Source: Tessaracoccus sp. OH4464_COT-324 (lineage in GTDB: Bacteria > Actinomycetota > Actinomycetes > Propionibacteriales > Propionibacteriaceae). From it: a stretch of 64,000 nt of DNA. Below, in pieces: positions 33,930 through 53,137 of the stretch. A program made the position numbers and the translations under genes. The notes under the pieces are model-generated. The model ran no database searches. It saw only the letters and a list, made by a program, of their open reading frames with translations, and had not been told where the DNA came from. The DNA is taken from contig NZ_RQYZ01000010.1 of NCBI RefSeq assembly GCF_003932855.1, positions 1-64,000 of the forward strand, given 5' to 3'. Position 1 is the stretch's first letter. The number at the start of each line of letters is the position of its first letter.

Positions 33930-35582
33930 ATGCTGCTGGTCCTGCTGTCCCTGCTCGCGGGCGCGCTCAGCGTGCTGGCCCCCTGCGTGCTTCCCTTCCT
34001 GCCCGTGATCGTCGGCGGTTCGGTTGGCACCGGCTCCCGCCGTCGACCGTACCTGATCGCTCTCGGGCTGACCGTCTCCCTGATCGCGTTCACCCTGCTG
34101 CTCAAAGCGTCCACCGCGCTGATCAATATTGACCCGATGGTCTGGGCCATCGCGTCGGGGGCGCTGGTGGTCATCCTCGGGCTGACGATGCTGCTGCCAG
34201 GGGTCTGGGCTGGCCTCGCTGGCCGGCTCAACCTCTCCGGACGTTCGCACAGCCTGCTGCATTCCGCCAGTTCCTCCGGCCGCGGTGAGACCGTGGGCGC
34301 GGTCCTGACCGGGGCCGCCCTGGGGCCGGTGTTCTCCAGTTGCAGCCCAACCTACGCGTGGGTGATCGCGACGGTGCTTCCCGCCCAGCCTGCGACCGCG
34401 ATGATCTACCTCAGCGCCTACTGTGTAGGCATGGCCGGGACCCTGCTGGCCGTGTCCCTCGCCGGGCGGAAACTGATCGATCGTCTCGGATGGGCTGCTA
34501 ACCCGTCCGGCTGGTTCCAGCGCGTGATCGCGGTGCTGTTCATCGTCGTAGGCGTGCTGGTCGCCACCGGCGTGGACAAGCAGGTTCAGGCCTGGGCGGT
34601 TGACAAACTGCCCGTCATCTCGTCGGTGGAAGAAAACCTCCTGCCTAAGCAGCTGCCGTCGGGGGACGAACCCGCACGCTCCGCCGCGCTCGGCAAAGCA
34701 CCCGAGTTCGAGGGCATCACCGAGTGGATCAACTCCAGCCCCCTCACAATGAGCCAGCTACGCGGCAAACCGGTCCTGATCGACTTCTGGACCTACAGCT
34801 GCATCAACTGCATCCGAACCCAGCCCTATCTCAACGCCTGGTACGACCGCTACCACGACCAAGGGCTGGAGATCGTCGGGGTGCACGCTCCCGAGTTTGC
34901 CTTCGAGCGGATGCCCGAGAACGTGCGCCGCGCGGTGGGCGACGCTGGCATCCGTTACCCCGTCGCGCTGGACAACGACTTCGCCACTTGGCGGGCCTAC
35001 GGCAACCGCTACTGGCCAGCGAAGTACCTGGTCAACGCCGAAGGCGAGGTGGTCTGGACCCACTTCGGCGAAGGGGACTACGACGAGGCGGAAACCCAGA
35101 TTCGTAAGCTGCTCGACGCCCAGGGCCCGACCGCGAGCACCACCGGCGAGGTGCTGACCCACACCCCCGGGCAATCCCCGGAGACCTACCTGGGCACCGA
35201 CCGCGCCGCCGGCTTCGTCGGTGAGCCGGGCCTGAGCGCCGGGGAAAGCACTTTCCGGGCGGCCGAAGAACTGAAGGTAAATCAGTGGACCCTAGACGGG
35301 CAATGGCTGGTCGACAACGAGTCGATCACTGCCGGCCGCGACGGCGCCCGACTGAAGTACCGGTTCACGGGGCGCGAAATGTTCCTGGTGATGAGCGGTC
35401 CCGAGGGCGCCACCGTCGAGGTCAAGAGCAGCGCGCCCGGCCCTGACGTCGTTGACGGTAAGGTGCAAATTTCGGGTTCGAAGCTCTATCGGCTGGTCCG
35501 GCTTCCGGAAGCCAGCCCGGGCGAAACCGTGGAGTTGACATTCAGCGAAGGTGTACGGGCGAATGCGTTCACCTTCGGCTGA
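33930..35582 (+). CDS. dipZ: DipZ-type CcdA-thioredoxin fusion protein
   Basis: 550-residue membrane protein that carries reducing equivalents across the membrane. Residues 1-220 are a CcdA/DsbD transmembrane domain with the two redox cysteines Cys19 (LAPCVLPF) and Cys138 (VFSSCSPTYAW). Residues about 255-400 are an outside TlpA-like thioredoxin domain with CINC at 291-294 (FWTYSCINCIRTQPYL). The C-terminal 150 residues are a beta-rich domain like the carbohydrate-binding-type end of M. tuberculosis DipZ. The start follows the lipoprotein stop directly. A response regulator starts 16 bases after the stop, so lipoprotein, dipZ and the two-component genes may form one operon. Confidence 0.9.
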   Translation: MLLVLLSLLAGALSVLAPCVLPFLPVIVGGSVGTGSRRRPYLIALGLTVSLIAFTLLLKASTALINIDPMVWAIASGALVVILGLTMLLPGVWAGLAGRLNLSGRSHSLLHSASSSGRGETVGAVLTGAALGPVFSSCSPTYAWVIATVLPAQPATAMIYLSAYCVGMAGTLLAVSLAGRKLIDRLGWAANPSGWFQRVIAVLFIVVGVLVATGVDKQVQAWAVDKLPVISSVEENLLPKQLPSGDEPARSAALGKAPEFEGITEWINSSPLTMSQLRGKPVLIDFWTYSCINCIRTQPYLNAWYDRYHDQGLEIVGVHAPEFAFERMPENVRRAVGDAGIRYPVALDNDFATWRAYGNRYWPAKYLVNAEGEVVWTHFGEGDYDEAETQIRKLLDAQGPTASTTGEVLTHTPGQSPETYLGTDRAAGFVGEPGLSAGESTFRAAEELKVNQWTLDGQWLVDNESITAGRDGARLKYRFTGREMFLVMSGPEGATVEVKSSAPGPDVVDGKVQISGSKLYRLVRLPEASPGETVELTFSEGVRANAFTFG

Positions 35583-35598
35583 TGACTACGCTGAGCAG

Positions 35599-36273
35599 AT
35601 GGCTCAGATACTTGTTGTGGACGACGACCCCACCGTGCGTGGGGTCGTCGCCGACTACCTGCGCGCGGCGGGCTACGAGGTTGTCGAGGCCATCGACGGG
35701 CCCAGCGGACTCGCTGCCGCCGAGGCCACCGACCTCGTCGTTCTGGACCTCATGCTGCCGAAGCTCGACGGGCTAGAAGTATTCCGCAGGCTGCGCTCCA
35801 CGGGCTCCCGGGTACCCGTGATCATGCTGACTGCCAAGGACAGCGAGGCCGACCGCATCCTCGGGCTCGAACTGGGCGCCGACGACTACCTCACGAAACC
35901 GTTCAGCCCACGAGAGCTGGTGCTGCGGGTCCAGTCCGTGCTGCGCCGAGCGGGCAACGCCCCGGACTCCGGAGAATTGGTTGACGGCCCGCTCACCATC
36001 GACCTGACCAGCAGAAAGGCCTCCCTGCGCGGCACACCGATCAGCCTCACCCTGCGCGAGTTTGACCTGCTCGCCCACTTCGTCTCCCACCCCGATCAGG
36101 TCTTCTCCCGCGAGGAGCTGATGCAGGCGGTGTGGGGCTGGCGTTTCGGCGACGCGGCCACCGTCACCGTCCACGTGCGCAGGCTGCGCGGCAAGGTGGA
36201 GGACGACCCCTCCAGCCCGACGAAGCTGGTCACCGTTTGGGGGCGGGGCTACCGCTGGGAGCCCGAGCGATGA
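35599..36273 (+). CDS. Two-component response regulator, OmpR/PhoB type
   Basis: 224-residue regulator with a receiver domain (acidic residues in VVDDDP, phosphoacceptor Asp50 in [13 protein letters not shown], Lys in [13 protein letters not shown]) and a winged-helix output domain ([19 protein letters not shown], then [15 protein letters not shown] and [10 protein letters not shown]). The ATG at 35599 restores the usual start AQILVVDDD; the longer frame overlaps dipZ. It lies 16 bases after dipZ and overlaps the kinase start (ATGA). Candidate targets are the redox genes before it and the subtilase genes after it. Confidence 0.93.
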
Positions 36274-37259
36274 TCGTCCCGGTGATGCTGTCGGTCGGGG
36301 CGGCGCTCGTCGTCGGCGCAGCCTCCGCCGTTGTCACCTCAATAGTGGCGAAACGCTCGCTGCGCTGGGCTAGCGTGCTCGGCCCCACCTCCGTGGTGCT
36401 GGCCATCGGGGCGGGGCTCGTCGTCGGCGTGCAGCAGATGGTGGTGAAGTCGCAGCTGCCGCTCATCGTGTTGGCCGCGACCGCCCCCATCGCGGTCCTC
36501 GTGGGCGTCTTCTTGGCCCGGAACTCGCAGCGCCAGGCCGCCGAGGCCAGCGCTGCGCTGGAGCAGGAGCGCGCGCGACGCGCACTTGAGCAGTCCCGCC
36601 GTGAACTGATCGCCTGGCTCTCCCACGACATCCGCACCCCTTTGGCTGGAATCCGGGCCATGGGCGAGGCGTTGGAGGATTCGGTGGCCCCCGACCCCAA
36701 GAGCTATTACCGGGCGATAGTCGCCTCAGCGGAGCGAACGAGCCACATGGTGGACGATCTGATGGCCCTCGCGGCGCTGCACTCGGGCGAGCTGCCGGTG
36801 GCACCGGAGCCGGTAGCACTGGGCGACATCGTCTCGGACCTAATCGCGCAGTTGGCCCCGTTGGCCGAGCGGCGCAACGTACGGCTCGTCGGGCAGTCAA
36901 CCGGCCGCACCGAGGTACTCGCCGACCCGAGACTGCTCACCCGCGCCGCACAAAATGCGCTAGTCAACGCGGTAAACTACACCGCTCCGGGCAGCACGGT
37001 CGAGGCGAGGGTGTCCGCTGAACCAGACCACGTCGTGCTCGAAATCCGGGACAGGTGCGGAGGCATCCCCCCTGCCGACCTCTCACGGTTGTTCGACCCC
37101 GGCTGGCGCGGCGATCAGGCGCGCACCCCCGAAGCCACCGCTGGCTCGGGCCTGGGACTGCCGATTGTGCGCACGATCGCTGTGGCCCACGGGGGCAGCG
37201 CCACCGTGCGAAACGTAGGCGACGGCTGCTGCCTCCGGTTGACGTTACCCCGAGAATAA
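36270..37259 (+). CDS. Two-component sensor histidine kinase
   Basis: 329-residue kinase. Two or three N-terminal helices (about residues 3-27, 36-56 and 62-84) have almost no outside loop, so it is an intramembrane-sensing type, unlike the PhoR class with a large sensor. HisKA has His119 ([16 protein letters not shown]); the ATPase domain shows N-box [24 protein letters not shown] and [18 protein letters not shown]. Coupled to the response regulator by an ATGA overlap. The first subtilase gene starts 118 bases downstream. Confidence 0.92.
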
Positions 37260-37377: not shown

Positions 37378-40300
37378 ATGAAGAAAGCTTTTGCAGCACT
37401 GGCTGCGACGACACTCGCTCTCACGGGAACTCTGTTCTCGCCCGCCCATGCGGACGTTACCGACGCCCCGCCCCCGCATGCGGTGCTGCGACGAGGCAGC
37501 CAGCCGAGCGATTCCGGCAAGCCACAGAAGGCGCTCGTGATGCTCAAATCGCAGCCCGAGGGCAGAGGCGATGAGGCGGCAGGCTTGGCGGCCGTCGAAC
37601 GCGTAACCCGTCGTTGGAGCCATGTGGAGGGCTTCAAGGTGCGGCGAAAGTTCGGCTCGCTTGTGCACGGATTCTCCGTTGAGTTGCCTCGCCACCAGAT
37701 CCCAAACCTGCTAGGCGACCCTGACATCGAGTCGGTGCGGCCATTGAAAACGTACTATCCGACGATGGCCTCCGCCGGCGACCTGACGAAGAGCACGCAG
37801 GCCCGAAAGAACCTAGGGGTTGACGGCCGCGGCCTCGTCATCTCCGTTATCGATACCGGGATCGACCCCACGCACCAGGACATGCGCCTAGATGACGATG
37901 TCGAGGGGCGTTTGAGGCCAACTGGTAAAGGCACCACTGAGAAGATTCCCTATGGCTGGAACTTCGCCGACGATAACGACAACTTCGTGGACACAACCAG
38001 TTCGATGCACGGCATGCACGTCGCCGGGATCGCTGCAGCCAACGGCGGCAAGGACGCGGATGCGCTCAGTGGCCGGATCAATGGCGTCGCGCCCAACGCC
38101 CAGCTGCTCAGCATGAAGGTTTTCTCCAACGGCCAAGATGGGGGTGCCAGCGAGGACGACATTATCGCTGCCATCGAGAAGTCGGTCGAACTCGGTGCCG
38201 ACGTGATCAATATGTCGCTCGGCATAACCAACGGCACCGAGCAATCCAGCGTCGGCGAGGGGCGCGCGATCGCGAATGCCCAAGCTGCAGGCGTGCAGGT
38301 GATCGTCGCAGCCGGAAATGAGGGCATCAACGGGTCCTTGACCGGCGAAACCGACGACGCGACCGGCCTGCTCGACGACGGCACCGTCGGCTCCCCCGCA
38401 ACAGCACGGGGTGCCCTGAGCGTGGCGAGCGTCAACAACACGCAGTCTTTGGCGCACAAGGCCGTGTTCACCGCGGGCGCCGAGAAGCTGGAGCTGGGTT
38501 ACCAGCTGCAAACCGGCGCCCGCGATGATCAAGAGTACGACATCGTTGCCGCCGGCTTTGGCAGGTTCCCCAGCGACTATGCCTCCGATGACCCGGAGCC
38601 TCACGAAAACGAGTTTCCCAACGGGGTTGAAGGTAAGTTCGTGCTCATTGAGCGCGGAAAGAATACCTTCGCCAAAATGTTCGGCAACGCCATGACGGCG
38701 GGCGCAGCAGGTGTGATCATCTACAACTCGGTAGAGGGTGGAGACCGATATGAGAGCATGTCCGGGGTGGATGATGTCGCCTTGCCGGGAGCATTCATGT
38801 GGCGAAGCCACGGCCTGAAAGTCAAGGAGATGATCGCTGCTCACGGTGGCAGCATCAAGGTGGAACTCACCAGGCAGACGGTGCCCTATCCTCTGGGAGA
38901 CAAGGCCCTCACGCCCTCCGCATTCACCTCCTGGGGAACCGGCCCAGCCCTCGATTTCAAGCCCCAGCTCTCGGGGATCGGTGGTTCGGTCTACTCGACC
39001 CTGAACGGCAACGAGTACGGGGAGGAATCCGGCACGTCCATGGCAGCGCCCCACGTCGCTGGCGCCTTCGCGCTGGGACGCGAGGCCTACGCTAAGCGCT
39101 TCCCCAGCCTGGGCAAGTCGGAAGCCAACGAGCGCCTGCGGATCGCGCTGGCGAATACCGCCCGCATCCTGGAAAACCCAGACAGGGTGCCCTACGCGCC
39201 CCGCCAGATCGGCGCCGGGCTGATCCAGACCGAGGACGCACTGCGCACGAACGTCTTCGCCACCGTCGAGGGTTCGCCCACCGCCGCGTTGCGCGAGGTC
39301 CGGGGCCCACGGACGTTCACCGTCAGGCTCTCCAACCACGGATCGACGGAGCACACGTTCAGCGCGGGCGGCACCTGCGTGCTGGCCGAGTCGCAGACGA
39401 TCAACGGCCCCAACCAGATGAGTTGCAACCCGGCGGAAAGCCTATCCGCCAGCGCCGCCAAGGTTCGGGTTCCCGCCGGGGGCAGCGCCACCGTCGACTT
39501 CACCCTGACGCCGCAGGACGGAAAGGACCACTGGATCCAGGGTTGGGCCACGCTGGCCTCCGACGACGAGACCGCACAGCCGTCGCTTTCCGTGCCCTAC
39601 CTGGGTTTCGTCGGAAACTGGAATGCCGAGCGCATCATTGACGACCCGGAGAACCCCTATTTCGCTCCTCTCTTCGGCGCAGACACCCCGAGCCGCACCA
39701 AGCTCGTCCGACCAGGCATCGGCGGCCCGGAAGAAGCCTTCTGGATGTCCTTCGCCGAGAACGAATCCATCTACCCCATGGTGATGCTGATGCGTTCAGC
39801 TAGCGAGGTCGAGGCCGAGGTGCTGAAGGGCGACAAGACGTGGGTCAAGCTGGGAAGCGACCGGGACGTGCTCCGCCACCGGTTTGTGGAGCTGGATCCG
39901 GACACCGACAATTCGCATCTCCTCTCCACGCTAGGCTGGGATGGCGGGATCTACGATCCTGCCAAGAACGCCTTTGCTAAAACGCCGGATGGTACGGATT
40001 ACGCGGTGAGAATCCGCGCACGGTTGTCGTCTGACTTCGACTGGCAGGTGACGGAACTGCCCTTCAAGGTCGACAACACCGCCCCGGAGCTGAGCCTCAA
40101 CATGACACCCAACCCCGACGGGTCACGCACCTTCATGGTGTATGCCAAGGACGCGCTCTCCGGCTTGATCCCCAGCTCTGGGCAGGCAAGCTTGGTCTCG
40201 CGTCCCAAATTGTCGCTCCCGGTGGAGAACCAGCCCGACGGCAGCTTCAAGGTCACGGTGCCCCCGGACGCCGTCAAGGATAACGACTTCCTGCGCTTGA

Positions 40301-42318
40301 CGGTCCAGGATGAGGCGGGCAACGTCGCGGAGAAGATCGAGTATCTGGGCTCCGCGCCAGTCAAGCTGGTCAACGAGCACCTGTTCAATAAATGGGTTGG
40401 CTCGGATACCGAGCAACAGGTCGCTCCCCGTATTGAGGACGGCGAGATCGTCATGGCGCTCCACGTTCTGGATTCGGTGAAACGGGTCACCGTGAACGGC
40501 CACGAAGCCCGTATTGAGGGCTCAGGCGCCGAAGTCAAGCTTCCGCTGAAGCAGGCGAAGTCTCCCGAGGACGTCAACCGGTTCGAGGTAGTTGCCTTCG
40601 ACGGCAGCGGTCAGCAGATCTATAAAATCGACCCGGAAAATCTCTGGCTGGGCTACGACATCACGCCACCCGAGCTGAAGATCATCAAGATGAACCTCAG
40701 CGACAAAGGCGAGGCGATTCTTGATGAGAACGGCGAGATCGAGATCGAGGCTATTGTCTCCGACGACGTCTCGCCCGTCAGCGACATCGTGGTTTACCAG
40801 GACACCCCCGGTAATCCCATACCCGTGGATGGGAACGGCCGGTTCAAGACGAGGCTGACCTCCAGCGACCTGGTTCCTGCGGTCTTCCTGAATGCGAACG
40901 ATCACGCCGCACAAGGAGCGCTGGTTAATCAGGCGCTGAAGACTTGGCCTGTCTTTAACGAGGCCCCGGATCTGTCTCCGAGGATCGCGTTTGACGACCC
41001 AAACCTGCACCCGATCGCGCCTGAGGCTGGAGCCGTCTTTTTCGTAGACAGCAGTTTCGAGAACCTTGAGTTGATTGACGATGAGGCTACCGGGAATAAA
41101 ATCGCGGCCCGGCTCACGCTCAAGGGACGAATCTTGGGCGCGTTCCAGGACTTCCGGGTCGAGGACAAGGCCGTGAAGCTGGACGACAACGGCCGGTTCG
41201 AAGTGCCGATCAATCTGGTGAATGGCATCACCAAGGTGGGCATCGAGATCCAGCAGGACGCAAGCAACTGGGCTGAATCGAGCCTCACCTTCCTCTTCGA
41301 CAGGAACCTGCCTGACTACTCGTTCGCGACTGATCCCCGGGTGGCCTCTGACGGCGCTATCTATCTGACGTCACCCAAGGATGTTCGCGTCTCCGGCGAG
41401 GTGTCCGACGATGAGTTCGGCTACGCCTTGAAGCTCAATGGTTCAGTGATACGCAACTTCCAGAACCTTAACGACCCCGGCGCGGATCGCAACCGGCGCG
41501 CCTTTGACGAGAAGATCCTCGGCAAACCCGGCGAGTTCATGCGGATGAGTTTCTACGACGAGTTCCAAAACGGCTTCGAACGAACCATCCCGTTCGTTTC
41601 CGACGGCCAGGCCCCGCGGCTTGAGCACCAAGGGTTGGCGGCGAGTCAGCTGCTGTCCGGAAAGACCACGATCAGGGTGATCGCGACCGACACAAACCTA
41701 GAGCGGCTGCACCTCACCCTGGACGGCAAACCCCTCGCCGGCAAGGTGGTGCAGGCTGACCACCCCGGGGCCACGTTGACCGTGTACCGCGGCGGCGAGC
41801 CGCAGCCCGCACAGGCCAAGGCGTCCGACGCGCGGAGCGAGATCGTTGTGGAGGCGGAAATCGACAGCGCCAAACTGGCTTCAGGCACCCATACGCTGGT
41901 GCTGCTCGCCGCAGACGCCGCAGGCAACCAGTCCATGGAGAAGCTGCTCTTCCTCGTCAATGCTCCCCCCGTGATCGAGGGACCTGAGTTCCTCATCGTG
42001 GAGGCGAACGACGACGTGAGCGCCGCAAGCAAGGTGTTGGCCGCGCTGAAGGCCGGCTACGTCGCCCGTGACGCGGAGGACGGCGTCCTGCCGCTCACGA
42101 TCTCCTTCGAGCCGTCCACCTTCCAGAAGGGCAGGCAGTATCGGGTGCTGTTGTCCGCCACGGACTCGCTCGGCCAGCGCGTGCAGCGCGAGGTACGTGT
42201 TGAGGTAAGGCCAGCGGGCGACCACAAACCTGGCAGCCCCGGGAAACCAGGCACCCCCGGGAAACCGGTTGGGCCAGGAAAGCCCGGCAAACCGGGCCTG
42301 CCCAAGACCGGGGCCTGA
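37378..42318 (+). CDS. Giant secreted subtilase 1 (S8, lactocepin-like, ends in LPKTGA)
   Basis: 1646-residue extracellular serine protease. Signal peptide at residues 1-25 (cleavage near AHA-D), then an inhibitor-I9-like propeptide (KALVMLKSQPEGRGDE to about 130). The S8 domain has Asp159 ([11 protein letters not shown]), His211 ([10 protein letters not shown]), the oxyanion Asn in VIVAAGNEG and Ser554 ([11 protein letters not shown]). A protease-associated domain is inserted at about 365-500 (GKFVLIERGKNTFAKMFGNA). An Fn3_5-like domain (about 640-740) holds the only two cysteines, 667 and 683. Several Ig-like beta domains follow, then a PGKPG-rich end closing in LPKTGA and the stop, without a hydrophobic sorting tail. 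GGAGGG precedes the ATG. First of three tandem paralogues; here the SPN-DG motif of the other two is lost (reads SFAENESIYP). Confidence 0.93.
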   Translation: MKKAFAALAATTLALTGTLFSPAHADVTDAPPPHAVLRRGSQPSDSGKPQKALVMLKSQPEGRGDEAAGLAAVERVTRRWSHVEGFKVRRKFGSLVHGFSVELPRHQIPNLLGDPDIESVRPLKTYYPTMASAGDLTKSTQARKNLGVDGRGLVISVIDTGIDPTHQDMRLDDDVEGRLRPTGKGTTEKIPYGWNFADDNDNFVDTTSSMHGMHVAGIAAANGGKDADALSGRINGVAPNAQLLSMKVFSNGQDGGASEDDIIAAIEKSVELGADVINMSLGITNGTEQSSVGEGRAIANAQAAGVQVIVAAGNEGINGSLTGETDDATGLLDDGTVGSPATARGALSVASVNNTQSLAHKAVFTAGAEKLELGYQLQTGARDDQEYDIVAAGFGRFPSDYASDDPEPHENEFPNGVEGKFVLIERGKNTFAKMFGNAMTAGAAGVIIYNSVEGGDRYESMSGVDDVALPGAFMWRSHGLKVKEMIAAHGGSIKVELTRQTVPYPLGDKALTPSAFTSWGTGPALDFKPQLSGIGGSVYSTLNGNEYGEESGTSMAAPHVAGAFALGREAYAKRFPSLGKSEANERLRIALANTARILENPDRVPYAPRQIGAGLIQTEDALRTNVFATVEGSPTAALREVRGPRTFTVRLSNHGSTEHTFSAGGTCVLAESQTINGPNQMSCNPAESLSASAAKVRVPAGGSATVDFTLTPQDGKDHWIQGWATLASDDETAQPSLSVPYLGFVGNWNAERIIDDPENPYFAPLFGADTPSRTKLVRPGIGGPEEAFWMSFAENESIYPMVMLMRSASEVEAEVLKGDKTWVKLGSDRDVLRHRFVELDPDTDNSHLLSTLGWDGGIYDPAKNAFAKTPDGTDYAVRIRARLSSDFDWQVTELPFKVDNTAPELSLNMTPNPDGSRTFMVYAKDALSGLIPSSGQASLVSRPKLSLPVENQPDGSFKVTVPPDAVKDNDFLRLTVQDEAGNVAEKIEYLGSAPVKLVNEHLFNKWVGSDTEQQVAPRIEDGEIVMALHVLDSVKRVTVNGHEARIEGSGAEVKLPLKQAKSPEDVNRFEVVAFDGSGQQIYKIDPENLWLGYDITPPELKIIKMNLSDKGEAILDENGEIEIEAIVSDDVSPVSDIVVYQDTPGNPIPVDGNGRFKTRLTSSDLVPAVFLNANDHAAQGALVNQALKTWPVFNEAPDLSPRIAFDDPNLHPIAPEAGAVFFVDSSFENLELIDDEATGNKIAARLTLKGRILGAFQDFRVEDKAVKLDDNGRFEVPINLVNGITKVGIEIQQDASNWAESSLTFLFDRNLPDYSFATDPRVASDGAIYLTSPKDVRVSGEVSDDEFGYALKLNGSVIRNFQNLNDPGADRNRRAFDEKILGKPGEFMRMSFYDEFQNGFERTIPFVSDGQAPRLEHQGLAASQLLSGKTTIRVIATDTNLERLHLTLDGKPLAGKVVQADHPGATLTVYRGGEPQPAQAKASDARSEIVVEAEIDSAKLASGTHTLVLLAADAAGNQSMEKLLFLVNAPPVIEGPEFLIVEANDDVSAASKVLAALKAGYVARDAEDGVLPLTISFEPSTFQKGRQYRVLLSATDSLGQRVQREVRVEVRPAGDHKPGSPGKPGTPGKPVGPGKPGKPGLPKTGA

Positions 42319-42329
42319 GACTGGCACCT

Positions 42330-42364
42330 TCTGGGCTGGCAGAACCCGGTTCTGCCAGCCCAGA
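42330..42364 (+). terminator. Hairpin after subtilase 1
   Basis: Sixteen-base complementary arms (42330-42345 and 42349-42364, TCTGGGCTGGCAGAAC with GTTCTGCCAGCCCAGA) and a tiny loop start 12 bases after the stop codon. No T-run follows, so it may act as an mRNA-end stabiliser or factor-dependent terminator. Confidence 0.65.
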
Positions 42365-42622
42365 GCCATGTAACGATTGGGTAACTCTCATCCTGGTAAA
42401 GACGAGCCGCACCCACCCCGGAAGCCAATTGTTTGCCCTTGTCGTCGCACAAAGCACAGCCAAGCCCGCCCCCTATCACCGGCAAAGCATAGGGTGACCG
42501 CCCAGCAAGCGGGCTGCCCGCAGTCCGGGAAAACCTCCCGAAAGCAAGCGAAGTGGCTTGTTGGCGGATAGTATGCGGCCGTCCAAGCAAGATTCTGTGG
42601 AATCATGAACGAACGGATACAG
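42365..42622 (+). promoter_or_regulatory. Intergenic leader between subtilases 1 and 2
   Basis: About 260 bases with no gene that I can support; together with the hairpin it makes the longest gap in the window. It must hold the subtilase 2 promoter: TAGTAT at 42569-42574 is the best -10 candidate, but no convincing -35 is seen. Short frames here have no ribosome site or protein character. Confidence 0.4.
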
Positions 42623-45600
42623 ATGAAAAAAACGATGGCATCGCTGGCGGCGTTTACGCTGGCGGCTTCCGGGGTGCTTGCCACCCCCGCCTTCGCGGAC
42701 GAGAGTACTGAGCCCCCCGCTCAGCCCAGTGTCGTGGCGCCTGTCGTCGACGCTGAGGAGGCGCCGGTGGATCAGCCGCGGCGCGTGCTCGTCATGCTGA
42801 AGCACCAGCCCGAGGGGAAGGGCAACGAGTCCGAGGGCCTCGCTGCCGTGGAGCGGGTGCTGGGCCGTTGGCAAGATACCGATGGGTTCAGCGTTCGCCG
42901 CAAGTTCGGCACCCTGGTCAACGCTTTCTCCGCGACGCTGCCGGAGAGCCAGATTGATGCGCTAGCTGCCGACCCTGACGTCGAATCGGTCAAGGTCCTC
43001 AAGGTCTTCTACCCGACGCAGCAGACCGCTGGCGACCTCTCGAAGAGCACCTCCGCTCGTAAGAACCTGGGTGTGGATGGCCGGGGCCTCGTCGTCTCGG
43101 TGATCGACACCGGCATTGACCCCACCCACCGCGACATGCGGCTGGATGACGGAGTACCCAAGAAGCTGAAGCCCAAGGGTAAGGGCGCCACTGACAAGGT
43201 GCCCTACGGTTGGAACTACGCCGACGATAACGACAATTTCGTTGACTCCACCAGTTCGATGCACGGCATGCACGTCGCGGGAATCGTCGCGGCGAATGGC
43301 GGCCCTGACGCCAATGTCACCACCAACGGCAGGATCAACGGCATAGCGCCCAACGCCCAGTTGCTCAGCATGAAGGTCTTCTCCAACAACGAAGAGCTCA
43401 CGGGCGCGCAGGAAGACGACATCATCGCGGCCATCGAGGACTCGGTGAAACTCGGCGCGGACGTGATCAACATGTCTCTCGGCTCACCGAATGGTACGAA
43501 CCAATCCGCAGTCGGTGAGGGTCGCGCCATCGCCAACGCACAAGCCGCCGGTGTCCAGGTTGTAGTTGCCGCGGGCAACGAGGGCCTCAACGGCTCGCCC
43601 AGCACCAACACCACCGACCTGACCGACAAGCTAGACGACGGTACCGTCGGTAGCCCGTCAACTGCTCACGACGCCCTCAGCGTCGCCTCGGTGAATAACT
43701 CCCAACTCATCGCCTCTACCGCCGAAGTCGCCGCCGCAGGCCAGACGGAGAAGGTGGGTTACCAGCTCCAGTCCGGCGAGACCGATGACGAGGCGCACAC
43801 GCTGGTGTTCGGAGGTTTGGGCAAGCCGGATCAGATCCCGGCCAACGCGAAGGGCAACTACGTCCTCATCCAGCGGGGCGAAATCGCCTTCACGGAGAAA
43901 TTCGACAACGCCATCGCCGCTGGAGCTACCGGCGTGATCATCTTCAACTCTGCTACCGGTGGTGACAAGTTCCAGGGCATGGCCGGAGTAGGCTCCTACA
44001 AGATTCCGGGCGCCTTCATGTTCCACTCCACCGGTAAGCGTCTGGAGAAGCTGATCCAAGACAACCCGGGCGGCGTCACTATCAAGTTGACCGAGGAGTC
44101 TCTCTCCCTTCCCCTGGGCGACGTAGCACTGACCCCGTCGGACTTCACCTCGTGGGGATCCGGTCCAGCGCTCGATTTCAAGCCGCAGATCGCGGGCATC
44201 GGTGGCTCGGTCTACTCCACGTACAACGACAATTCCTACGGAACCTCGTCTGGTACCTCAATGGCAGCCCCACACGTTGCTGGCGCTTTCGCCTTGGGAC
44301 TGCAAAAGTACGAGGAAAAGTTCAGCGGACTGAACGACGTCCAGCGTAACGAGTTGCTGCGCGTGGCGATGTCCAACACAGCGTTGATCCTGGAAAAGGG
44401 CGGTGTTCCCTTCGCCCCGCGCCAGATCGGTGCGGGTCTGGTGCAGACCGAGGACGCGATCAATAGCAACGTGTTCGCTACCGTGGATGACTCCCCCACC
44501 GTCGCCCTGCGCGAGGTCAAGGGTGCACGCACCTTCACCGTGACCTTGAACAACAAGGGCGACAAGGCTTACACCTTCACCACCGACGCGACTTGCGGTG
44601 TGCAGGAGTCCCAGCAGGCTGCCCAGGCCAACACCACCTCCTGCAGTGATGCCGAGAAGGCCGTCGCTGCCAAGAGCGAGGTGACCGTCCCTGCCGGCGG
44701 GACTGCTACTGTCGACTTCACGGTCACTCCCGCAGGGAACACCCCGCACTGGCTCCAGGGCTGGGTGAAGCTCGCGTCCAAGGATGCGGCCCAGCCGTCG
44801 CTGTCGCTGCCGTACCTCGGCTTCGCCGGCGACTGGAACGCCGAGCCCATCATTGACGCTCCCGGCGCTACCCCGTACTACAACGCGTTGCTCGGCCCCT
44901 CGCAGCCCAACCGCTCGACGCTTCTGGCTCGCAGCGTGTACGGCCCCCAGCAAACCACTTGGCTGTCCCCCAACGATGATGGCAGGAACGACGCCATCTA
45001 CCCGGCGATCATGATGCTCCGCTCGGCCAGTGATGCCGAGTTCGAGATCGTGAAAGATGGGGAGGTGCTGACCAAGCTCGGCAGCGCACGGGATCTGCAG
45101 CGCAGGCCGCTCGGCAGGCTTCGCCCCTCCGGTCCCAACGCAGCAGCCACCTTCTTCGACAACCGCTGGGGTGGGCGCATTTACGATGCGGTTAACGACG
45201 TGTTCCAGCTTGAGCCCGACAGCAGTCCCGGCGCTTACACCTACCGGGTGCGGGCGAGACTCTCCGAGGACTTCCCCTGGCAGACCTACGACTTCAACTT
45301 CGGGATCGACAACACCGCTCCCAAGGTCGAGTTGAGCTTCCAGGAGAATGCCGATAAGTCGAGGCTGTACACCGCCAAGGTAACGGAAACGGGTGCAGGT
45401 CTGTTCCAGAAATCTGCGAGCGCGCAGAGTCCGGTAACCGGTGATTTCTTCGCGACGACCGAAGGACCGAACAACACCTTCACCTTCACGCTCACCCCAG
45501 AGCAGGTGCAGGGCAACGACTACTTCGTCTTCTCGATCATGGACCGGGCGGGCAACATGGGCTCCAAGCTCGAATACCTCAGCGCAGAGCACCTGCTCAT

Positions 45601-47629
45601 CGATACGGATCGCTACAACAAGTGGATTGGAACCATCACCCGAGTCATTGACGCTCCGAGGCGTGTCAATGATCTCGTGACCGTCGATTTCGTGGCCAGC
45701 CCCCAGGTGGCTCGGGTCACTGTCAACGGTGTTGAAGCCCGGCTGGAAGACGGGGAGGGCGAGGCCGAGATCAAGCTTGAGGTAGACAAGAAGAACACCA
45801 TCACCGTCATCGCCTACGATTCGAACGGCGCTGAGCTGTACAAGAAGGAACTCTGGCTTGGGTTGGACCTCACTCCCCCGGTGATCGAGTTCACCGAGAT
45901 CAAGCTGAACGCAAACGGTGAGGTGGTCCTTGCGGACGACGGAACCGTCGAGTTCAAGGCTAAGGTGACCGACAACCTGTCCGGCCCGGATGACCTGCTC
46001 GTTCTGGCAGGCAAGGGTCTTGATGGTGCGGATCTGTTCCCGACCATCGGGGCTGACGGGACCTTCTCAGCGCACGTTCGCCCGAATCCTTCGGATACCG
46101 GACTGGCTCTCGCGGCCGCTGACCACGCCAAGGAGAACACCACCAGCCTCGCCAACATCGGCCGCCTGATCGTACCGATCGCCGGCCGGGCCCCCACTTC
46201 GGGACCCTCGACGATGCGGATCGTCTTCGATGATCCGGATCTCAACTCTCCGGGCGCCCCGTTTGGCGAGCAGGTCTACATCGTCGGTCCCCACAACCTC
46301 GCCCTCACCATGGTCAATGACCGCGCTGAGGGCGAGGAGGTTGCCGCGAAGCTCGCCCTCAAGGGCCGCTTCACCGTGAAACCGCACGCCTTCCGCATCA
46401 AAGGCAAGGACGTGGCGTTGAACGACAAGGGCGAATTCAGTGTTCCCCTCGACCTGGTCAACGGCATCAACAGCGTCGGCTACGAGGTGGTTGAGAAGAG
46501 CGGCGACGACGCCCACGAGGGCAAGTGGCGTTTCTTCTACGACCGCAACCTGCCGGGTTACACGATGAAGACCGACCCTGCCATCGCGTCCGACGGTGCT
46601 ATCTACTTGAAGGCGCAGCCGGCGGAGGTTGCGGTTTCCGGCGAGGTCTGGGACAACGAGTTCGGTTACCGTCTGGAGCTCAATGGCTCCACCGTTAAGG
46701 ACTTCGACAACCTCTGGGATCCCGGCAAGGACGTGAACCGTCGCCCTTACTCCGAGAAGGTCAAGGTTGCCGACAAGGACAACTTCCTGAGGCTGACCCT
46801 GTTCGACCAGCTTGGCAACGGCATCGAGCGTTCGATCCCCTACGTAATCGACGGGGCAGCGCCGACTGTCAAGATCAATGGCATCAAGGACAATGATCTA
46901 GTCTCCGCCAAGCACACTTTCACCGTCGAAGCTGAGGATGACTCGCTGAAGGAACTGACTGTCTGGATCAACGGCAATCAGGTCGACAGCAAGCACATCG
47001 CTAAGACGGCGGTGCACCCAGCGGCTAAGCTCATGACCTTCCGCAACGGCCAACCCGTCGCTGCGGAGGATCCGCAAGAAACCTCCGGTGAGATGCGGCC
47101 CGCGGCTCTGCCGGGCACCGGTAAGAAGGCTTTGTCCATCACCGTCGATCTGGGCGCACTCGGTCTTGACAGCGGAAAGCACGAGCTCCGAGTCCAAGCC
47201 GACGACTACGCCGGCAACAAGACCCTGAACGCCCTGTCCTTCGAGATCAACCACAAGCCGACGATCTCCGGGCCGGACTCCCTGGATGTCACCGTCGAGG
47301 GAGACCCCGCGCAGCAGTACAGGGGCGTGATCGATGCGATCAACGCCGCGTACCAGGTGAGCGACCCGGAAGACGACAAGGCGGGCAAGGCTATCAGCCT
47401 GAAGTTCGACGCCACGAAGATCAAACTGGGTCAGAGCTTCAGCCTCACCCTGTGGGCGGTTGATTCCGCAGGGCAGCGGGTGGAGCGTGAGGTAACCATC
47501 CGCGTGACCGTCAAAGTCAAGCCGGGCAAACCAGGCAAGCCAGGCAAACCCGACAAGCCGGGCAAGCCAGGCAAGCCGGGCAAACCCGGTAAGCCGGGCA
47601 GGCCAGGTCTGCCGAAGACCGGCGCCTAA
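42623..47629 (+). CDS. Giant secreted subtilase 2 (S8, lactocepin-like, ends in LPKTGA)
   Basis: 1668-residue extracellular protease, paralogue of its neighbours. I start at the ATG 42623 ([17 protein letters not shown]), parallel to subtilase 1; an ATG six codons earlier is possible. Signal peptide to about 25 (PAFA-D), I9 propeptide, S8 triad Asp162 ([11 protein letters not shown]), His214 ([10 protein letters not shown]), Ser546 ([11 protein letters not shown]), with a protease-associated insert ([20 protein letters not shown]). The Fn3_5-like domain has the only cysteines, 658 and 674. A calcium-type motif [13 protein letters not shown] follows, then beta domains and one copy of the PTISGPD-type module. 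The stalk is ten KPG-type triplets ending LPKTGA-stop with no membrane tail. It has its own promoter region and a strong terminator. Confidence 0.93.
47519..47608 (+). repeat. 9-bp repeats coding KPG triplets
   Basis: Ten in-frame 9-base units code KPG (one KPD, one RPG) directly before LPKTGA of subtilase 2. Codon use varies between units (AAG CCG GGC, AAA CCA GGC and so on), so the DNA repeat is imperfect while the peptide is regular. It would form an extended wall-spanning stalk. Confidence 0.9.
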
Positions 47630-47640
47630 CAACCAACCGA

Positions 47641-47680
47641 GGGTGGGCCCCAGCTACGCAGCTGGGGCCCACCCCTTTTT
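47641..47680 (+). terminator. Intrinsic terminator after subtilase 2
   Basis: Perfect 15-base arms GGGTGGGCCCCAGCT and AGCTGGGGCCCACCC with a four-base loop, followed by C and five T. Confidence 0.95.
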
Positions 47681-47793
47681 CTTCGACGACGTCAATCGCT
47701 CACTTCCGATGTTCGATCATCCTTTCCCAAGTTTCACGATCTTCATTTCGGCCCTATCCTGTGGTAGTAAGCAAACGATGCGAGGGGACTTTA

Positions 47794-50700
47794 ATGAAGA
47801 CTACGCTGCTAAAGCTTATGGCATTGTCATTGGCGTTATCAGGAAGCGGAATTGCGGCATTCGCCGACGATTCCACTTCACCCACCACTCCTGCCGAAGG
47901 AGCTGCAGAAATCAAAGCGCCGGCTTACCATCCCGAAGTCACCGGCGCACTCGTCATGCTCAAGGAACAACCCGACGGGTTGGGAGATGAGGACGCAGGC
48001 CTGGCGGCCGTTGAGCGGGTGGTGGCCCGCTGGCAAAGCCGGGAAGGTTTCCAAGTCAGGCGAAAATTCGGCGCATTGGTCAAGGGATTCTCAGCAACGA
48101 TGCCACCCGCTCTCATGGCCGAACTCCAGTTCGATCCCGACGTGGCGAGCGTCAGGAAACTCCAAACCTTCTACCCTGCGCTCACGAATGCTGCCCGGCT
48201 CTCCGAGGCTAGCCAGGAAACCCGCCAACGTTTGGGCGTAGATGGCCGTGGGCTCGTCGTAGCAGTGATCGACAGCGGAGTGAACCCACAGCACGAAGAC
48301 ATGCGACTCGACTCGGATGTGACGCCGCGGCTAGCTCGCGACACGAGCATCCCGGGCACCACCGACAAGGTCCCGTTCGGGTGGAACTATTCCGACCAGA
48401 ACGCGTTCTTCACCGAGACGAAGAACGCCTCGCACGGCATGCACGTCGCAGGCATCGTCGCAGCGAACGGAGCAGAAGGCCCCGCCTCCCCCATCGGCGA
48501 CCGAGTAGACGGTATCGCGCCTAACGCACAGATTTTGGCTATGAAGGTCTTCACCAACGACAGCAACAGCCCGAGTGGCTTGGAGGACGACATCATCGCG
48601 GCGATCGAGGACTCCGTGAAACACGGCGCCGACATCATCAACCTGTCGCTTGGTGCACCCAACGGCGTCCAGCAGGTTTCGGTAGGCGAAGGCCGAGCGG
48701 TGGCCAACGCCCAGAAAGCGGGTGTTCAAGTGGTCGCTGCTGCGGGAAACGAGGGCCTCAACGGCTCCCGGACCCGCGATGAGCAAGACATCACCGGCAT
48801 GCTCGACGACGGCACGCTCGGCACCCCCGCCATCACGGGCGAGGCCCTGGCCGTCGCTTCGATCAACAACAGCTCCAGCGACAAGCTCACCCCGTCCTAC
48901 TTCACGTCCTGGGGCACCGGATCCGCCCTACAGTTCAAGCCTGAGATCGCAGGCATCGGCGGAGGCGTCAAATCCACTTACAACAACGGGTACGGCACGG
49001 AGTGGGGCACCTCGATGGCTTCCCCCAACGTCGCAGGGGCATTTGCACTTGGCCTACAGGCCTACCAGCAGCGGTTCCCCGACCTAAGCAAGGCCGAACG
49101 CAACAAGCTGCTGCGCATCGCAATGAGCAACACCGCCAAAGCGCCTAGCGTGGCCGGCGTGCTCGCCCCGCCGCGACAGGTCGGGGCAGGCCTCGTGCAG
49201 ACCGAAAGCGCGATCAATACCAAGGTCTTCGCCACCGTGGCCGACTCCCCCAACGTTGCGCTCGGCGAGGTTCGCGGCAACCGCACTATCGCGGTCAACC
49301 TCACCAACAAGGGCACCAAGCCGTATTCGTTCACTCCCGGCGCAACCTGTGTTCTCCAGGAGAACCACGCTCCCAATGAGCGCAACTACCCCAAGTGCTC
49401 CGCAACGGACACAGTCCGCCACCCCTCCGAGAAGGTGACCGTGGCCCCGGGGAGCAGCACCACCGTCGAGTTCACTCTGGAGGTGCCCGACGCCGCCGCG
49501 CACTGGGTGCAGGGTTGGGTAACTCTCGCCTCGGACGACCGGGAACAGCCTTCGCTGAGCGTGCCCTATCTAGGCTTCGCCGGCGACTGGAATGCCGAGC
49601 CCATCGTCGACGCTCTGGACGGGCCAGGATTCTTCGACGCCTTCTTCTCTGGAAAGACGCACGACCACACCACCCGGCTGATGACGAACATCGAGGGCGA
49701 GGCGCGCCCCACCGCTTGGTTCTCGCCCAACGGCGACGGCCACGGGGACAGCGTCTACCCACGGCTGATGATGCTGCGTTCGGCCAGCGACCTTGAGTTC
49801 GAGGTACAGCGAGACGGCCAGCGCATCATCGGGCTGGGGCAGGGCAGGGATTGGAGTCGGCCGCTGATGCGCAGCGTGCTGGCTTCGAAGTCCTCCGCCG
49901 CCAACTCTGCCTATGCCCACAGCTGGAACGGCAAGCTGTACAACCCCAAGACCGACCAGTTCGATACCGCGGCGGAGGGGCGCTACACCTACCAGGTCCG
50001 CGCCCGGCTTTCTCCCGACTTCGGCTGGCAGGTCACTGACTTCCCGTTGGGCATCGATCTCACAAGACCCAACGTGTCGCTGAGTTTCACCCGCAACGAC
50101 GACGGCTCACGAAAATACACCGTCACCGCGTCTGACGCGCTGTCCGGTGTGCGGGATGTAGTGGCCGAGGATTCCCTTTCCAAGCAGACCTTCACGGTGG
50201 CGTTGGACGGCCCCGACAGCTACTCCTTCACTGTTCCGGCGGATATCGCTCGGACACAGTCCTTCGTCCGCGTCGGTGTCCGGGATCTGGCGGGCAACCT
50301 CGCCAGCGAGACCAGCTCCTACAGCACCAGGACCCTGAGCGTGACCAACCTCGACCGATTCGACCGCTGGGTCGGGGCCGACTCCGATGCGCGAGCCATC
50401 CCCGCCATCGCCGACGATGCCGCGCGCGTCGAGTTCGCGGCCGGCCCCGACGTGGCACGGGTGACGGTCAACGGCGTAGAGGTGGCTCTCGAAGCGGGGC
50501 GCGGCGCGGGCACCGCTCCGCTCTCGGTGGGCAGGAACGACATCGTCGTCGCGGCTCACGCCGCCGACGGAACGCTGCTGGAGGAGCAGCGAATGTGGCT
50601 AGGCTACGACCCTGTTCGACCCACCGTGCAGCTGCGCGCGGGGTTGCTGGACGATAGCGGCAGGCTCACTCCCGACGACGACGGCAGGATCACGCTCGCC

Positions 50701-53046
50701 GGCACCGTCACGGACAACATCACAGCACCGGCCGAGCTGACCCTGCAGATCGCCGGGCAGCCGGTGTCCATTGAGGCCGACGGCTCGTTCGAGTTCGCCT
50801 TCGATCCGGGCGCCGCCGAATACGTCGGCGTGTTCGTGCAGGAGCATGTGAGTGACCATGCGATCGGCAACCTCGTGTCGGCTCGGTGGCCGGTGGCCAC
50901 CCGCCAGCAGTTGACGCACGGCATCCGCATAAACTTCGACGATCCCGCGCTTCAGGCGCAGCGCGCGTTCGGCAAGGCTTTCAACGACGTAACCTCGCGG
51001 TACCGAAACCTAGAGGTGGTGAACGCGGACGCGGTGGGCGACGAAGTGGCGGCCCGCCTACGGGTCACCGGGGCCTTCTCCAAGCGCCCGGCCGCCTTCC
51101 GCGTGGATGGTCAGGCCATCTCGCTGGATGCCTCCAACCGGTTTGAGTTCACTCTCGAACTGGTCAACGGCGCGAAACGGTTCGGCTTTGAGGTCGAGGA
51201 CACTCCCGGCAATCTGATCGCCGCAGGAAGCTGGCGGTTCAACTACGACTCCACGCTGCCGGGCTACACCTTCGACTCTACCCCTGCGGTGAACTCCGAC
51301 GGCGGGCTGTACCTCAAGTCGGCGCCCACGCACGTGGACATAACCGGAGAGGTGTGGGACAACGAGTTCGGCTATCGAATGCTGATCAACGGCTCCGTGG
51401 TGGGCAACTTCACGAACAAGAACGATCCGGGCCTGAACGATGGCCAGCCGATCAACCGTCGCCCATACTCGGAGACGGTAAACGTCGCCCAGGGCGACAA
51501 GTACATGCGGGTCAGGCTGACCGACCTCATGAACAACGGCATCGAGCGGCGCATCCCTCTAGTGCTCGACGAGGTGAACCCCGTAATCAGCCACTCCAGT
51601 ACCCAGCCCGGGCCACTGGTTGACCTGGAGCAGACCTACACCTTCAGAGCTACGGACTCTAACATCGAAAGCCTGGCTGTCAACATCGACGATCAGTCGG
51701 TTCGGGCCGAGGTCGTCCGGGTCAATCCCCGGCGCGATGTGATTGAAGGCGAGTACCGCCACGGCGTCTGGCGCCAGCTGCCCGTCCCGCCCGCGGGTCA
51801 GGCGGTCACTGAGCTGGAGATCGTGGTTCGCCTGGCCGACGTTCCTTCGCTCGCCAGCGGACGCCACGTTATCTCCGTCCTGGCCACCGATAAAGCCGGC
51901 CGGACCGCCAGCTATGACGAGCCCTTCGTGCTCGGAGCGATGCCGACGATCGCTGGCCCGGACACGCTGGTGCTGGCCAACAACGGCAAGCTCGACGAGC
52001 AGGTCCGCAAGGCGTTCACAGCGAAGGACTCGCTGGATCAGCCGCTCGAACTCAAGTTCGACCTGTCCGGGTTGAAGCCGAACCAGGCGGTGGCGGTCAC
52101 GTTGAGCGCCACGGACTCCTCGGGGCGCAAGGCCGAGAAGGTGGTACAGATTACCTTGGACACGGCACCCGAGATCGGTGGAGGAGCCGAGCTGACCGTC
52201 GTGGAGCCGAACCCGACCCGGACGGCAACTCTTGAGGAGCAGGTCCGCGCGGCCTTCCCCGTCACAGATGCGCTCGACGACGCGGCCGGCAAGCCGGTGC
52301 GGCTCGACTTCACCCTGCCCGAGCTGCAGCCCGGGCAGGCTACCGAGGTGACCCTTTCGGCCACCGACTCCCTGGGCCAGGTGACCACGAAGAAGGTGCA
52401 GATCACGTTGAAGGCGCGCCCGCAGATCGTCGGGCCGGACAGACTGCGGATCAAGGGTAGCGCCCCGGCGCTCAATCAGATCCGCGCCGTCTACCGGGCC
52501 ACTGATGCGCTCGGCCAGGTGCTGCAGATAACGTTCGGGCCTGAGCTGGCGCCGGATCAGGAGACCGAGGTGACGCTGCGCGCTGTGGACGAGGACGGCG
52601 TGGTGGCCACCCGGAAGGTTCGAATCCTGCTCGATAGCGCGCCGCTCATTTTCGGCCCGGATGCCGTCGAGCTGGAGCCCGGGGAGGATTACGCGGCAAA
52701 GCTGCGTGCGATCTACCGGGCCTCGGACGTGCTGGATGAGGCCGCGGGCAAGGGGGTGGAACTGCGCTTCACCCTGCCGACGCTGTTGGTCGGTGACGCC
52801 GTGAGCCTGGAGCTGTCCGCCACCGACTCTCTGGGCCAAACGACGCGGCGCGTCGTTTGGGTCAGCCTCAAGGCCACGCAACAGCCGGATCCGACGCCGG
52901 AACCGAAGCCCGTGCCCAAGCCGACGCCGGAACCGAAGCCCGTGCCCAAACCGGACCCCACGCCGGATCCGGAACCGAACCCGGGCAAGACGGTCAAGCC
53001 TCAGCCTCCGGAGAAGAAGCCGGGGCTACCCAAGACCGGCCGATGA
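47794..53046 (+). CDS. Giant secreted subtilase 3 (S8, no PA domain, four C-terminal repeats, ends in LPKTGR)
   Basis: 1750-residue extracellular protease. The ATG at 47794 (MKTTLLKLMALSLALSG) follows GAGGGGACTTTA; an upstream GTG frame lacks a signal peptide start. S8 triad: Asp160 (AVIDSGVNPQH), His214 ([10 protein letters not shown]), Ser407 (WGTSMASPNVAG). The gap between His and Ser is about 150 residues shorter than in its paralogues because the protease-associated insert is absent. The Fn3_5-like domain has the only cysteines, 519 and 535; SPNGDGHGDSVYP follows. At about 1383-1690 there are four tandem modules of about 70-80 residues, each opening like PTIAGPD or PLIFGPD, where the paralogues have one. 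A Pro/Lys-rich stalk ends LPKTGR-stop. Confidence 0.93.
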   Translation: MKTTLLKLMALSLALSGSGIAAFADDSTSPTTPAEGAAEIKAPAYHPEVTGALVMLKEQPDGLGDEDAGLAAVERVVARWQSREGFQVRRKFGALVKGFSATMPPALMAELQFDPDVASVRKLQTFYPALTNAARLSEASQETRQRLGVDGRGLVVAVIDSGVNPQHEDMRLDSDVTPRLARDTSIPGTTDKVPFGWNYSDQNAFFTETKNASHGMHVAGIVAANGAEGPASPIGDRVDGIAPNAQILAMKVFTNDSNSPSGLEDDIIAAIEDSVKHGADIINLSLGAPNGVQQVSVGEGRAVANAQKAGVQVVAAAGNEGLNGSRTRDEQDITGMLDDGTLGTPAITGEALAVASINNSSSDKLTPSYFTSWGTGSALQFKPEIAGIGGGVKSTYNNGYGTEWGTSMASPNVAGAFALGLQAYQQRFPDLSKAERNKLLRIAMSNTAKAPSVAGVLAPPRQVGAGLVQTESAINTKVFATVADSPNVALGEVRGNRTIAVNLTNKGTKPYSFTPGATCVLQENHAPNERNYPKCSATDTVRHPSEKVTVAPGSSTTVEFTLEVPDAAAHWVQGWVTLASDDREQPSLSVPYLGFAGDWNAEPIVDALDGPGFFDAFFSGKTHDHTTRLMTNIEGEARPTAWFSPNGDGHGDSVYPRLMMLRSASDLEFEVQRDGQRIIGLGQGRDWSRPLMRSVLASKSSAANSAYAHSWNGKLYNPKTDQFDTAAEGRYTYQVRARLSPDFGWQVTDFPLGIDLTRPNVSLSFTRNDDGSRKYTVTASDALSGVRDVVAEDSLSKQTFTVALDGPDSYSFTVPADIARTQSFVRVGVRDLAGNLASETSSYSTRTLSVTNLDRFDRWVGADSDARAIPAIADDAARVEFAAGPDVARVTVNGVEVALEAGRGAGTAPLSVGRNDIVVAAHAADGTLLEEQRMWLGYDPVRPTVQLRAGLLDDSGRLTPDDDGRITLAGTVTDNITAPAELTLQIAGQPVSIEADGSFEFAFDPGAAEYVGVFVQEHVSDHAIGNLVSARWPVATRQQLTHGIRINFDDPALQAQRAFGKAFNDVTSRYRNLEVVNADAVGDEVAARLRVTGAFSKRPAAFRVDGQAISLDASNRFEFTLELVNGAKRFGFEVEDTPGNLIAAGSWRFNYDSTLPGYTFDSTPAVNSDGGLYLKSAPTHVDITGEVWDNEFGYRMLINGSVVGNFTNKNDPGLNDGQPINRRPYSETVNVAQGDKYMRVRLTDLMNNGIERRIPLVLDEVNPVISHSSTQPGPLVDLEQTYTFRATDSNIESLAVNIDDQSVRAEVVRVNPRRDVIEGEYRHGVWRQLPVPPAGQAVTELEIVVRLADVPSLASGRHVISVLATDKAGRTASYDEPFVLGAMPTIAGPDTLVLANNGKLDEQVRKAFTAKDSLDQPLELKFDLSGLKPNQAVAVTLSATDSSGRKAEKVVQITLDTAPEIGGGAELTVVEPNPTRTATLEEQVRAAFPVTDALDDAAGKPVRLDFTLPELQPGQATEVTLSATDSLGQVTTKKVQITLKARPQIVGPDRLRIKGSAPALNQIRAVYRATDALGQVLQITFGPELAPDQETEVTLRAVDEDGVVATRKVRILLDSAPLIFGPDAVELEPGEDYAAKLRAIYRASDVLDEAAGKGVELRFTLPTLLVGDAVSLELSATDSLGQTTRRVVWVSLKATQQPDPTPEPKPVPKPTPEPKPVPKPDPTPDPEPNPGKTVKPQPPEKKPGLPKTGR
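52891..52950 (+). repeat. 30-bp direct repeat in the stalk of subtilase 3
   Basis: Two adjacent 30-base copies (52891-52920 and 52921-52950) differ only at the last base. Each codes PTPEPKPVPK. A partial third, diverged copy follows as PDPTPDPEP. Confidence 0.9.
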
Positions 53047-53053
53047 TCCACTG

Positions 53054-53094
53054 ACTGAAGGTGGCGTGCCCCGTTGGGGCACACCACCTTCAGT
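53054..53094. terminator. Bidirectional terminator between subtilase 3 and purD
   Basis: Nineteen-base arms (53054-53072, 53076-53094) with one mismatch and a three-base GTT loop lie between convergent genes. Confidence 0.9.
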
Positions 53095-53137
53095 CTTGCG
53101 TCGACTCGCGGCCAACGGAGCGCGGCTGTCTTTGAGG

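Follow-up and report, generated by a model that had tools for sequence, protein, structure and literature searches.

An Arachnia-like member of the Propionibacteriaceae, whose genome comprises 2.76 Mb in 217 contigs, encodes proteins of unrelated kinds that end in a stalk, an LPxTG motif, exactly one further residue and a stop codon, and the same ending recurs in other genomes of its genus. We consider it an evenly balanced proposition that the terminal LPxTG-x serves as a minimal sortase signal without a tail, by which these proteins would be anchored covalently to the wall, probably by a class F-like sortase. By common definition a sortase substrate carries a tail with a hydrophobic stretch and charged residues. 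The ending was initially noticed in three subtilases of the window, by which we mean the whole analysed stretch of 64,000 nucleotides, and proved to be genome-wide and not special to subtilases.

Three open reading frames on the + strand of the window (37378-42318, 42605-47629 and 47761-53046) were confirmed to stop one residue past LPKTG, as the initial annotation had described. The first two encode exported subtilases with S8, PA and Fn3-like domains (Pfam, with a signal-peptide rule for export) and the C-terminus LPKTGA, and their terminal signals, located by reading the sequence and by pattern matching, are LPKTG-A-TGA (42298-42318) and LPKTG-A-TAA (47609-47629). The third exported subtilase, with S8 and Fn3-like domains and the C-terminus LPKTGR, was listed from a GTG at 47761; its likely start is the ATG at 47794, where the signal peptide begins, which gives 47794-53046, and its terminal signal, LPKTG-R-TGA (53026-53046), reads KPGLPKTGR-TGA with the residues before it. 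Peptidase_S8 scored 157-168 bits in the three proteins against a Pfam cut-off of 21.8, which makes them members of the S8 subtilases. Profile and sequence comparison relates them to cell-envelope proteinases. Among NCBIfam models the nearest describes an LPXTG-anchored peptidase family, matched with a score far below its cut-off. By eye the stalks differ as had been described, with PGKPG in the first two and PEPKPVPK in the third. The terminators that had been placed after all three stops held up in part: a strong hairpin follows each stop, but the terminator scan found a hairpin with a T-run at 47641-47674 alone (+ strand, 3' of the second stop), while those 3' of the first stop (about 42331-42363, +) and of the third (about 53053-53095, +) were seen by eye, have no T-run reported and are absent from the scan (that of the + strand for the third). 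A response regulator and a histidine kinase lie upstream of the three genes in the same direction (35551-37259, +) and, to judge from their position, are a possible regulator of the subtilases.

Searching the whole genome for LPxTG followed by one residue and TAA or TGA returned 27 matches, against three for the reversed pattern, and LPKTG in the same setting returned 19 against none. Reading each of the 27 places left 23 genes with a stalk, LPxTG, one residue and a stop; the four matches dropped comprised three in frames of 11-19 residues and one in a frame of 150 residues without a plausible start. The number is a lower bound, as TAG stops lay outside the search pattern, and a 24th gene with a TAG stop was met by chance: in the region C1:212500-217500 a long protein with DUF5979 domains ends in LPKTGA-TAG, two genes from a second class F-like sortase copy. 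Subtilases account for six of the 23 genes (three by Pfam, three by alignment). The others encode GH20, GH95 and GH35 proteins, a fucosidase, two 5'-nucleotidases, a thioester-domain protein, an LRR protein, a VWA-like protein just below the cut-off and four proteins with no Pfam match, together with three cut genes and one fragment.

When compared with the canonical sorting signal, the 23 genes have an LPxTG-like motif near the C-terminus and, in 18 cases, a clear N-terminal signal peptide, called by hydropathy and the AxA rule and not by a signal-peptide program; of the other five, three are truncated at contig ends, a fourth is a short fragment and the fifth has none. The hydrophobic stretch and basic residues are replaced by one residue and a stop. 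At C14:24239 (positions 1240-2088 of the region read) a 282-residue frame ending in LPKTGV has no recognisable signal peptide; the gene may begin at another position, or it may be disrupted. Nearly all of the stalks are Pro-rich, many have a high content of Lys, Ser or Thr, and the motif is LPKTG in 19 genes, LPSTG in two and LPRTG in two. The residue following the Gly is V in six genes, C in five, R in four, A in four, S in two, N in one and D in one. Cysteine as the single last residue, present in five of the 23 genes here, was found in only one of the 84 LPKTG-x matches in the other 197 genomes of the family. One ordinary tailed LPxTG protein was found in the genome, in which TIGR01167 gave nine matches at E-values up to 10, two of them over the cut-off.

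Errors in sequencing, assembly or annotation might have produced the endings, or a tail might be hidden by frameshift or read-through, and the genome is indeed fragmented, with the cut genes and the fragment noted above. The 150 bases past each stop were examined by reading every frame to its first stop and recording the best 15-residue hydropathy. No sorting tail was found in any frame 3' of the 23 stops, the highest value being 1.81, compared with 2.15-2.42 for three real tails, and a tail concealed by frameshift or read-through was rejected on this basis. Further members of the genus also have this ending, as do two named genomes (OH887 and P6A17, below), and we regard an artefact as scarcely credible. 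The initial annotation had likewise seen no tail coded after the three stops and had argued against three recent frameshifts; both points agree with the downstream frames, and the second also with the single tail-less group in the tree described below. Spread of a single 3' end from gene to gene by recent copying was considered as well and is disfavoured, since the 15-base motif is spelled in 17 ways among the 23 genes (13 ways among the 19 LPKTG genes).

The spacing between motif and stop is exact. With k residues between LPKTG and the stop, the genome has 19 matches for k=1 and none for either k=0 or k=2. In 198 genomes of the family k=1 gave 103 matches in 32 genomes against five control matches, and these are concentrated in the genus, where 19 of 39 genomes hold 81 of them. 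For k=2 the same 198 genomes gave 12 matches against seven in the control, two of the 12 being k=1 genes that have a second stop. For k=0, a pattern that also allowed TAG, there were 20 matches, 12 of them with TGG and hence no stop, against 32 in the control; one true k=0 stop occurs in the genus. When any residue was allowed at X, the search of related genomes for proteins ending near LPxTG gave 324 matches for LPxTG-x-stop against 85 for the control in the 39 genomes of the genus, distributed unevenly, with 27 each in this genome and in G038 and none in G017, G022 and G034. Seven regions of six other genomes (five within the genus, one of another genus) contained 11 open reading frames (110-952 residues) in which a stalk leads into LPKTGx; by eye, several of them, though not all, start with a signal peptide. 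In a phylum sample of 395 other genomes, searched with Lys at X, LPKTG-x-stop gave 30 matches against 18 for the control, which is near background. Given the excess here and in the genus and the near-background level in the phylum, chance is an unlikely source of the endings. Tailed LPxTG proteins occur family-wide, a TIGR01167 match at E 0.06 being present in 158 of the 198 genomes and in 28 of the 39 of the genus.

The combination of stalk, LPxTG and exact spacing on unrelated proteins argues for selection for the terminal motif. This had been suggested from the three subtilases and is now well supported by the unrelated proteins, the one exact spacing, the many synonymous spellings and the six subtilase paralogues of the genome, all of which keep the motif at 42-49% identity to the first.

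Homologues of the subtilases were used to infer the origin of the ending. C-termini were read for 31 of 76 named homologue loci, of which two were tail-less and 20 tailed by eye, the remaining nine being cut, broken or without a recognisable signal. The two tail-less proteins end in LPSTGR (Arachnia propionica OH887) and MPRTGN (Propionibacteriaceae P6A17). In Cutibacterium porci, Cutibacterium avidum and a Cutibacterium MAG, LPSTG is followed by a hydrophobic, basic tail, and homologues from Actinomycetaceae, Trueperella, Gardnerella, Brachybacterium, Clostridium and Enterococcus have a tail behind an LPxTG-like or variant motif. In a tree of 23 proteins, 17 of them from the 31 loci read and with its root placed for drawing only, the eight tail-less subtilases cluster together (support 100/100) among tailed relatives. 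This grouping is most simply read as a single loss of the tail that preceded the separation of the paralogues of this genome, with the bare motif probably kept since then through deep divergence. Column conservation on the alignment was 0.93 for both motif and stalk, with most stalk columns consisting of gaps.

The tailed homologues would also suit plain secretion, in which the stalk would give the proteins a loose hold and the motif would be left over from a tailed ancestor, as would the finding of related proteins, DsA1 and a 5'-nucleotidase, in the culture medium of Cutibacterium acnes (PMC3224659), an observation that fits partial release from the wall and plain secretion equally. A relic should decay, however, and the motif is intact in the six diverged paralogues and in the tail-less subtilases of OH887 and P6A17 (as LPSTG and MPRTG), and unrelated proteins carry it with the same exact spacing. 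We therefore think plain secretion quite improbable: of the earlier suggestion of a relic, the tailed ancestry stands, whereas a decaying relic is disfavoured.

Searching the genome with PF04203 identified two sortase homologues, one class F-like and one class E-like. The class F-like protein (C1:10160-11029) scored 32.8 bits against a cut-off of 26.6 and keeps the His, Cys and Arg of sortases, which supports its membership; against the class F model NF033748 it scored 53.3 bits, below the curated cut-off of 166, hence class F-like, and that cut-off was passed in 10 of the 198 family genomes. No solved structure was matched by its sequence. A second copy (C1:214641-215183) has no Pfam match and 47% identity to the first. 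Relatives are present in 36 of the 39 genomes of the genus, and all 31 distinct genes (33 loci, two pairs of loci being the same gene) keep the His, Cys and Arg. Because of these kept residues and the wide presence of relatives, the class F-like enzyme appears to be the best sortase candidate. Its role is worded as that of a candidate because class F homologues are nearly ubiquitous in the family (181 of 198 genomes), because a tail-less gene lay near the class F-like gene in one of 15 regions read (a further match there, a 159-residue frame ending in LPSTGSQA, was taken for chance) and because three genomes of the genus have no class F-like match; G039 has 12 LPxTG-x matches against five for the control, yet no class F-like match. 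The same near-ubiquity led us to reject class F presence as a discriminator of tail-less genomes. According to a recent actinobacterial study, class F sortases have no known physiological role, and deletion of all four class F genes of Actinoplanes missouriensis altered none of the phenotypes seen there (PMC13251363), which speaks against the candidate.

The class E-like homologue (C113:114966-115628, within the region C113:98000-117500) is membrane-anchored, has Gln at the Cys site and scored 109.8 bits against the NF033747 cut-off of 160. It adjoins a phosphoribosyltransferase-like gene. Homologues were found in 34 of the 39 genomes of the genus; the Cys is kept in 13 of the 34 and lost in 21, the His is often lost, and both residues are present in five, a pattern that makes this a likely pseudoenzyme family. 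The five genomes of the genus that do not have the gene (G019, G023, G028, G033 and G042) all have tail-less genes, and four of them have 13-14 LPxTG-x matches.

These observations bear on two further explanations. The motif may be cut and joined by another enzyme, either an unrecognised sortase or transpeptidase or a class E-like protein with an intact Cys. The class E-like gene here lies just downstream of two further LPKTG subtilases, while the class F-like gene is unlinked to its putative substrates in all but one of the regions read; moreover, a sortase E-domain protein was taken as the likely housekeeping sortase of propionibacteria (PMC3848858), whereas a review credits C. acnes with a class F sortase only (PMC7913060). 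With Gln at the catalytic site here, a minority of Cys-bearing homologues in the genus and no homologue in the five genomes with tail-less genes, we judge this unlikely, though it deserves some weight. Alternatively, LPxTG-x with its free carboxyl end may be bound uncut and non-covalently by a protein of the membrane, such as the degenerate class E-like homologue, and either held or handed on. Retention of this homologue in most of the genus despite the frequent loss of its Cys would be explained in this way; its absence from the five genomes speaks against it, and Cys loss showed no correlation with the number of tail-less genes (p = 0.26). We hold such a non-covalent reader to be distinctly improbable, and another enzyme, a non-covalent reader and plain secretion together carry about half of the weight.

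Under tail-free sorting by a class F-like sortase, the signal peptide would export the proteins, which would pass fully through the membrane, no C-terminal hydrophobic stretch being there to hold them. The Pro-rich and often Lys-rich stalk may keep the free C-terminus in or near the wall and so take over the part of the tail in retention. Once export is complete, a sortase anchored in the membrane, with the class F-like enzyme as the likeliest candidate, would cut between T and G, release a Gly-x dipeptide and join the Thr to an amine of the wall. Sortases generally need a residue after the Gly, so that this Gly stands in a peptide linkage, and the single residue past the motif could hold it in such a bond, which is also its state in ordinary substrates. 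In other bacteria the hydrophobic tail would accordingly serve for retention; here it has been lost, and partial release of the proteins would be expected. Sorting in the absence of a membrane tail has a tested precedent in AbpA, which ends in LPKTS-AVK, is anchored by SrtB and partly released, and whose last residues place GFP on the wall (PMC4974636). A second published case is sortase A, which joins soluble LPETG-tagged proteins in living cells (PMC3490390). The different anchoring route proposed in the initial annotation is partly right in our view: the ending is probably an ordinary sortase motif used without its membrane tail and not a new chemistry. For Arachnia and its relatives as a whole, we would place slightly short of even the broader proposition that much of the surface is anchored without a retention tail, a class F-like sortase capturing fully exported LPxTG-x proteins.

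Previous counts of C-terminal LPXTG proteins in three propionibacteria were 15, 12 and 18 (PMC3848858), a review gives 19 predicted sortase substrates for C. acnes (PMC8200545), and the recent actinobacterial search for substrates required a transmembrane region and basic residues (PMC13251363). The literature searched, with most subscription papers outside its coverage, contained no account of a genome-wide tail-less LPxTG class and mentioned the single cases of DsA1 and AbpA. Bacteria in which two dozen proteins have the motif but no tail suggest that the tail is naturally dispensable, and that lists of sortase substrates for such bacteria are too short, as searches requiring a transmembrane tail miss such proteins. 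If the proposed route is correct, class F-type sortases would gain a natural set of substrates that tail-requiring rules exclude, and with it a concrete and testable candidate role.

Among known systems, the SGO_0316/SGO_0317 family of LPXTG-anchored serine peptidases and the cell-envelope proteinases share with the window proteins a subtilase domain with PA and Fn3-like domains, but the window subtilases score 254-260 and 187 bits against the family cut-off of 1400, and a sorting tail closes most of the homologues whose C-termini were read (20 of 31). Class F sortases, such as C. acnes SrtF, provide the best model match for the candidate enzyme and share its His, Cys and Arg, but differ in the score (53 bits against 166) and in that no solved structure was matched by sequence. 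The canonical LPXTG signal resembles the ending described here in the signal peptide, the Pro-rich stalk, the position of LPxTG near the C-terminus and the kinds of surface protein that carry it; it differs in the hydrophobic stretch and basic tail. DsA1 of C. acnes, from the same family, likewise has LPXTG without a membrane-spanning domain and charged tail, but its motif lies at residue 411 of 432, with about 17 residues after it, and it is treated as a single protein and not as a class (PMC5527093). AbpA and SrtB of oral streptococci are similar in that an exported protein with LPxT and a very short end, free of a hydrophobic or charged tail, is anchored by a sortase and released in part; there, one protein ending in LPKTS-AVK is served by one adjacent class B sortase gene (PMC4974636), whereas here, with no gene linkage and a class F-like candidate, two dozen proteins share LPxTG and exactly one residue.
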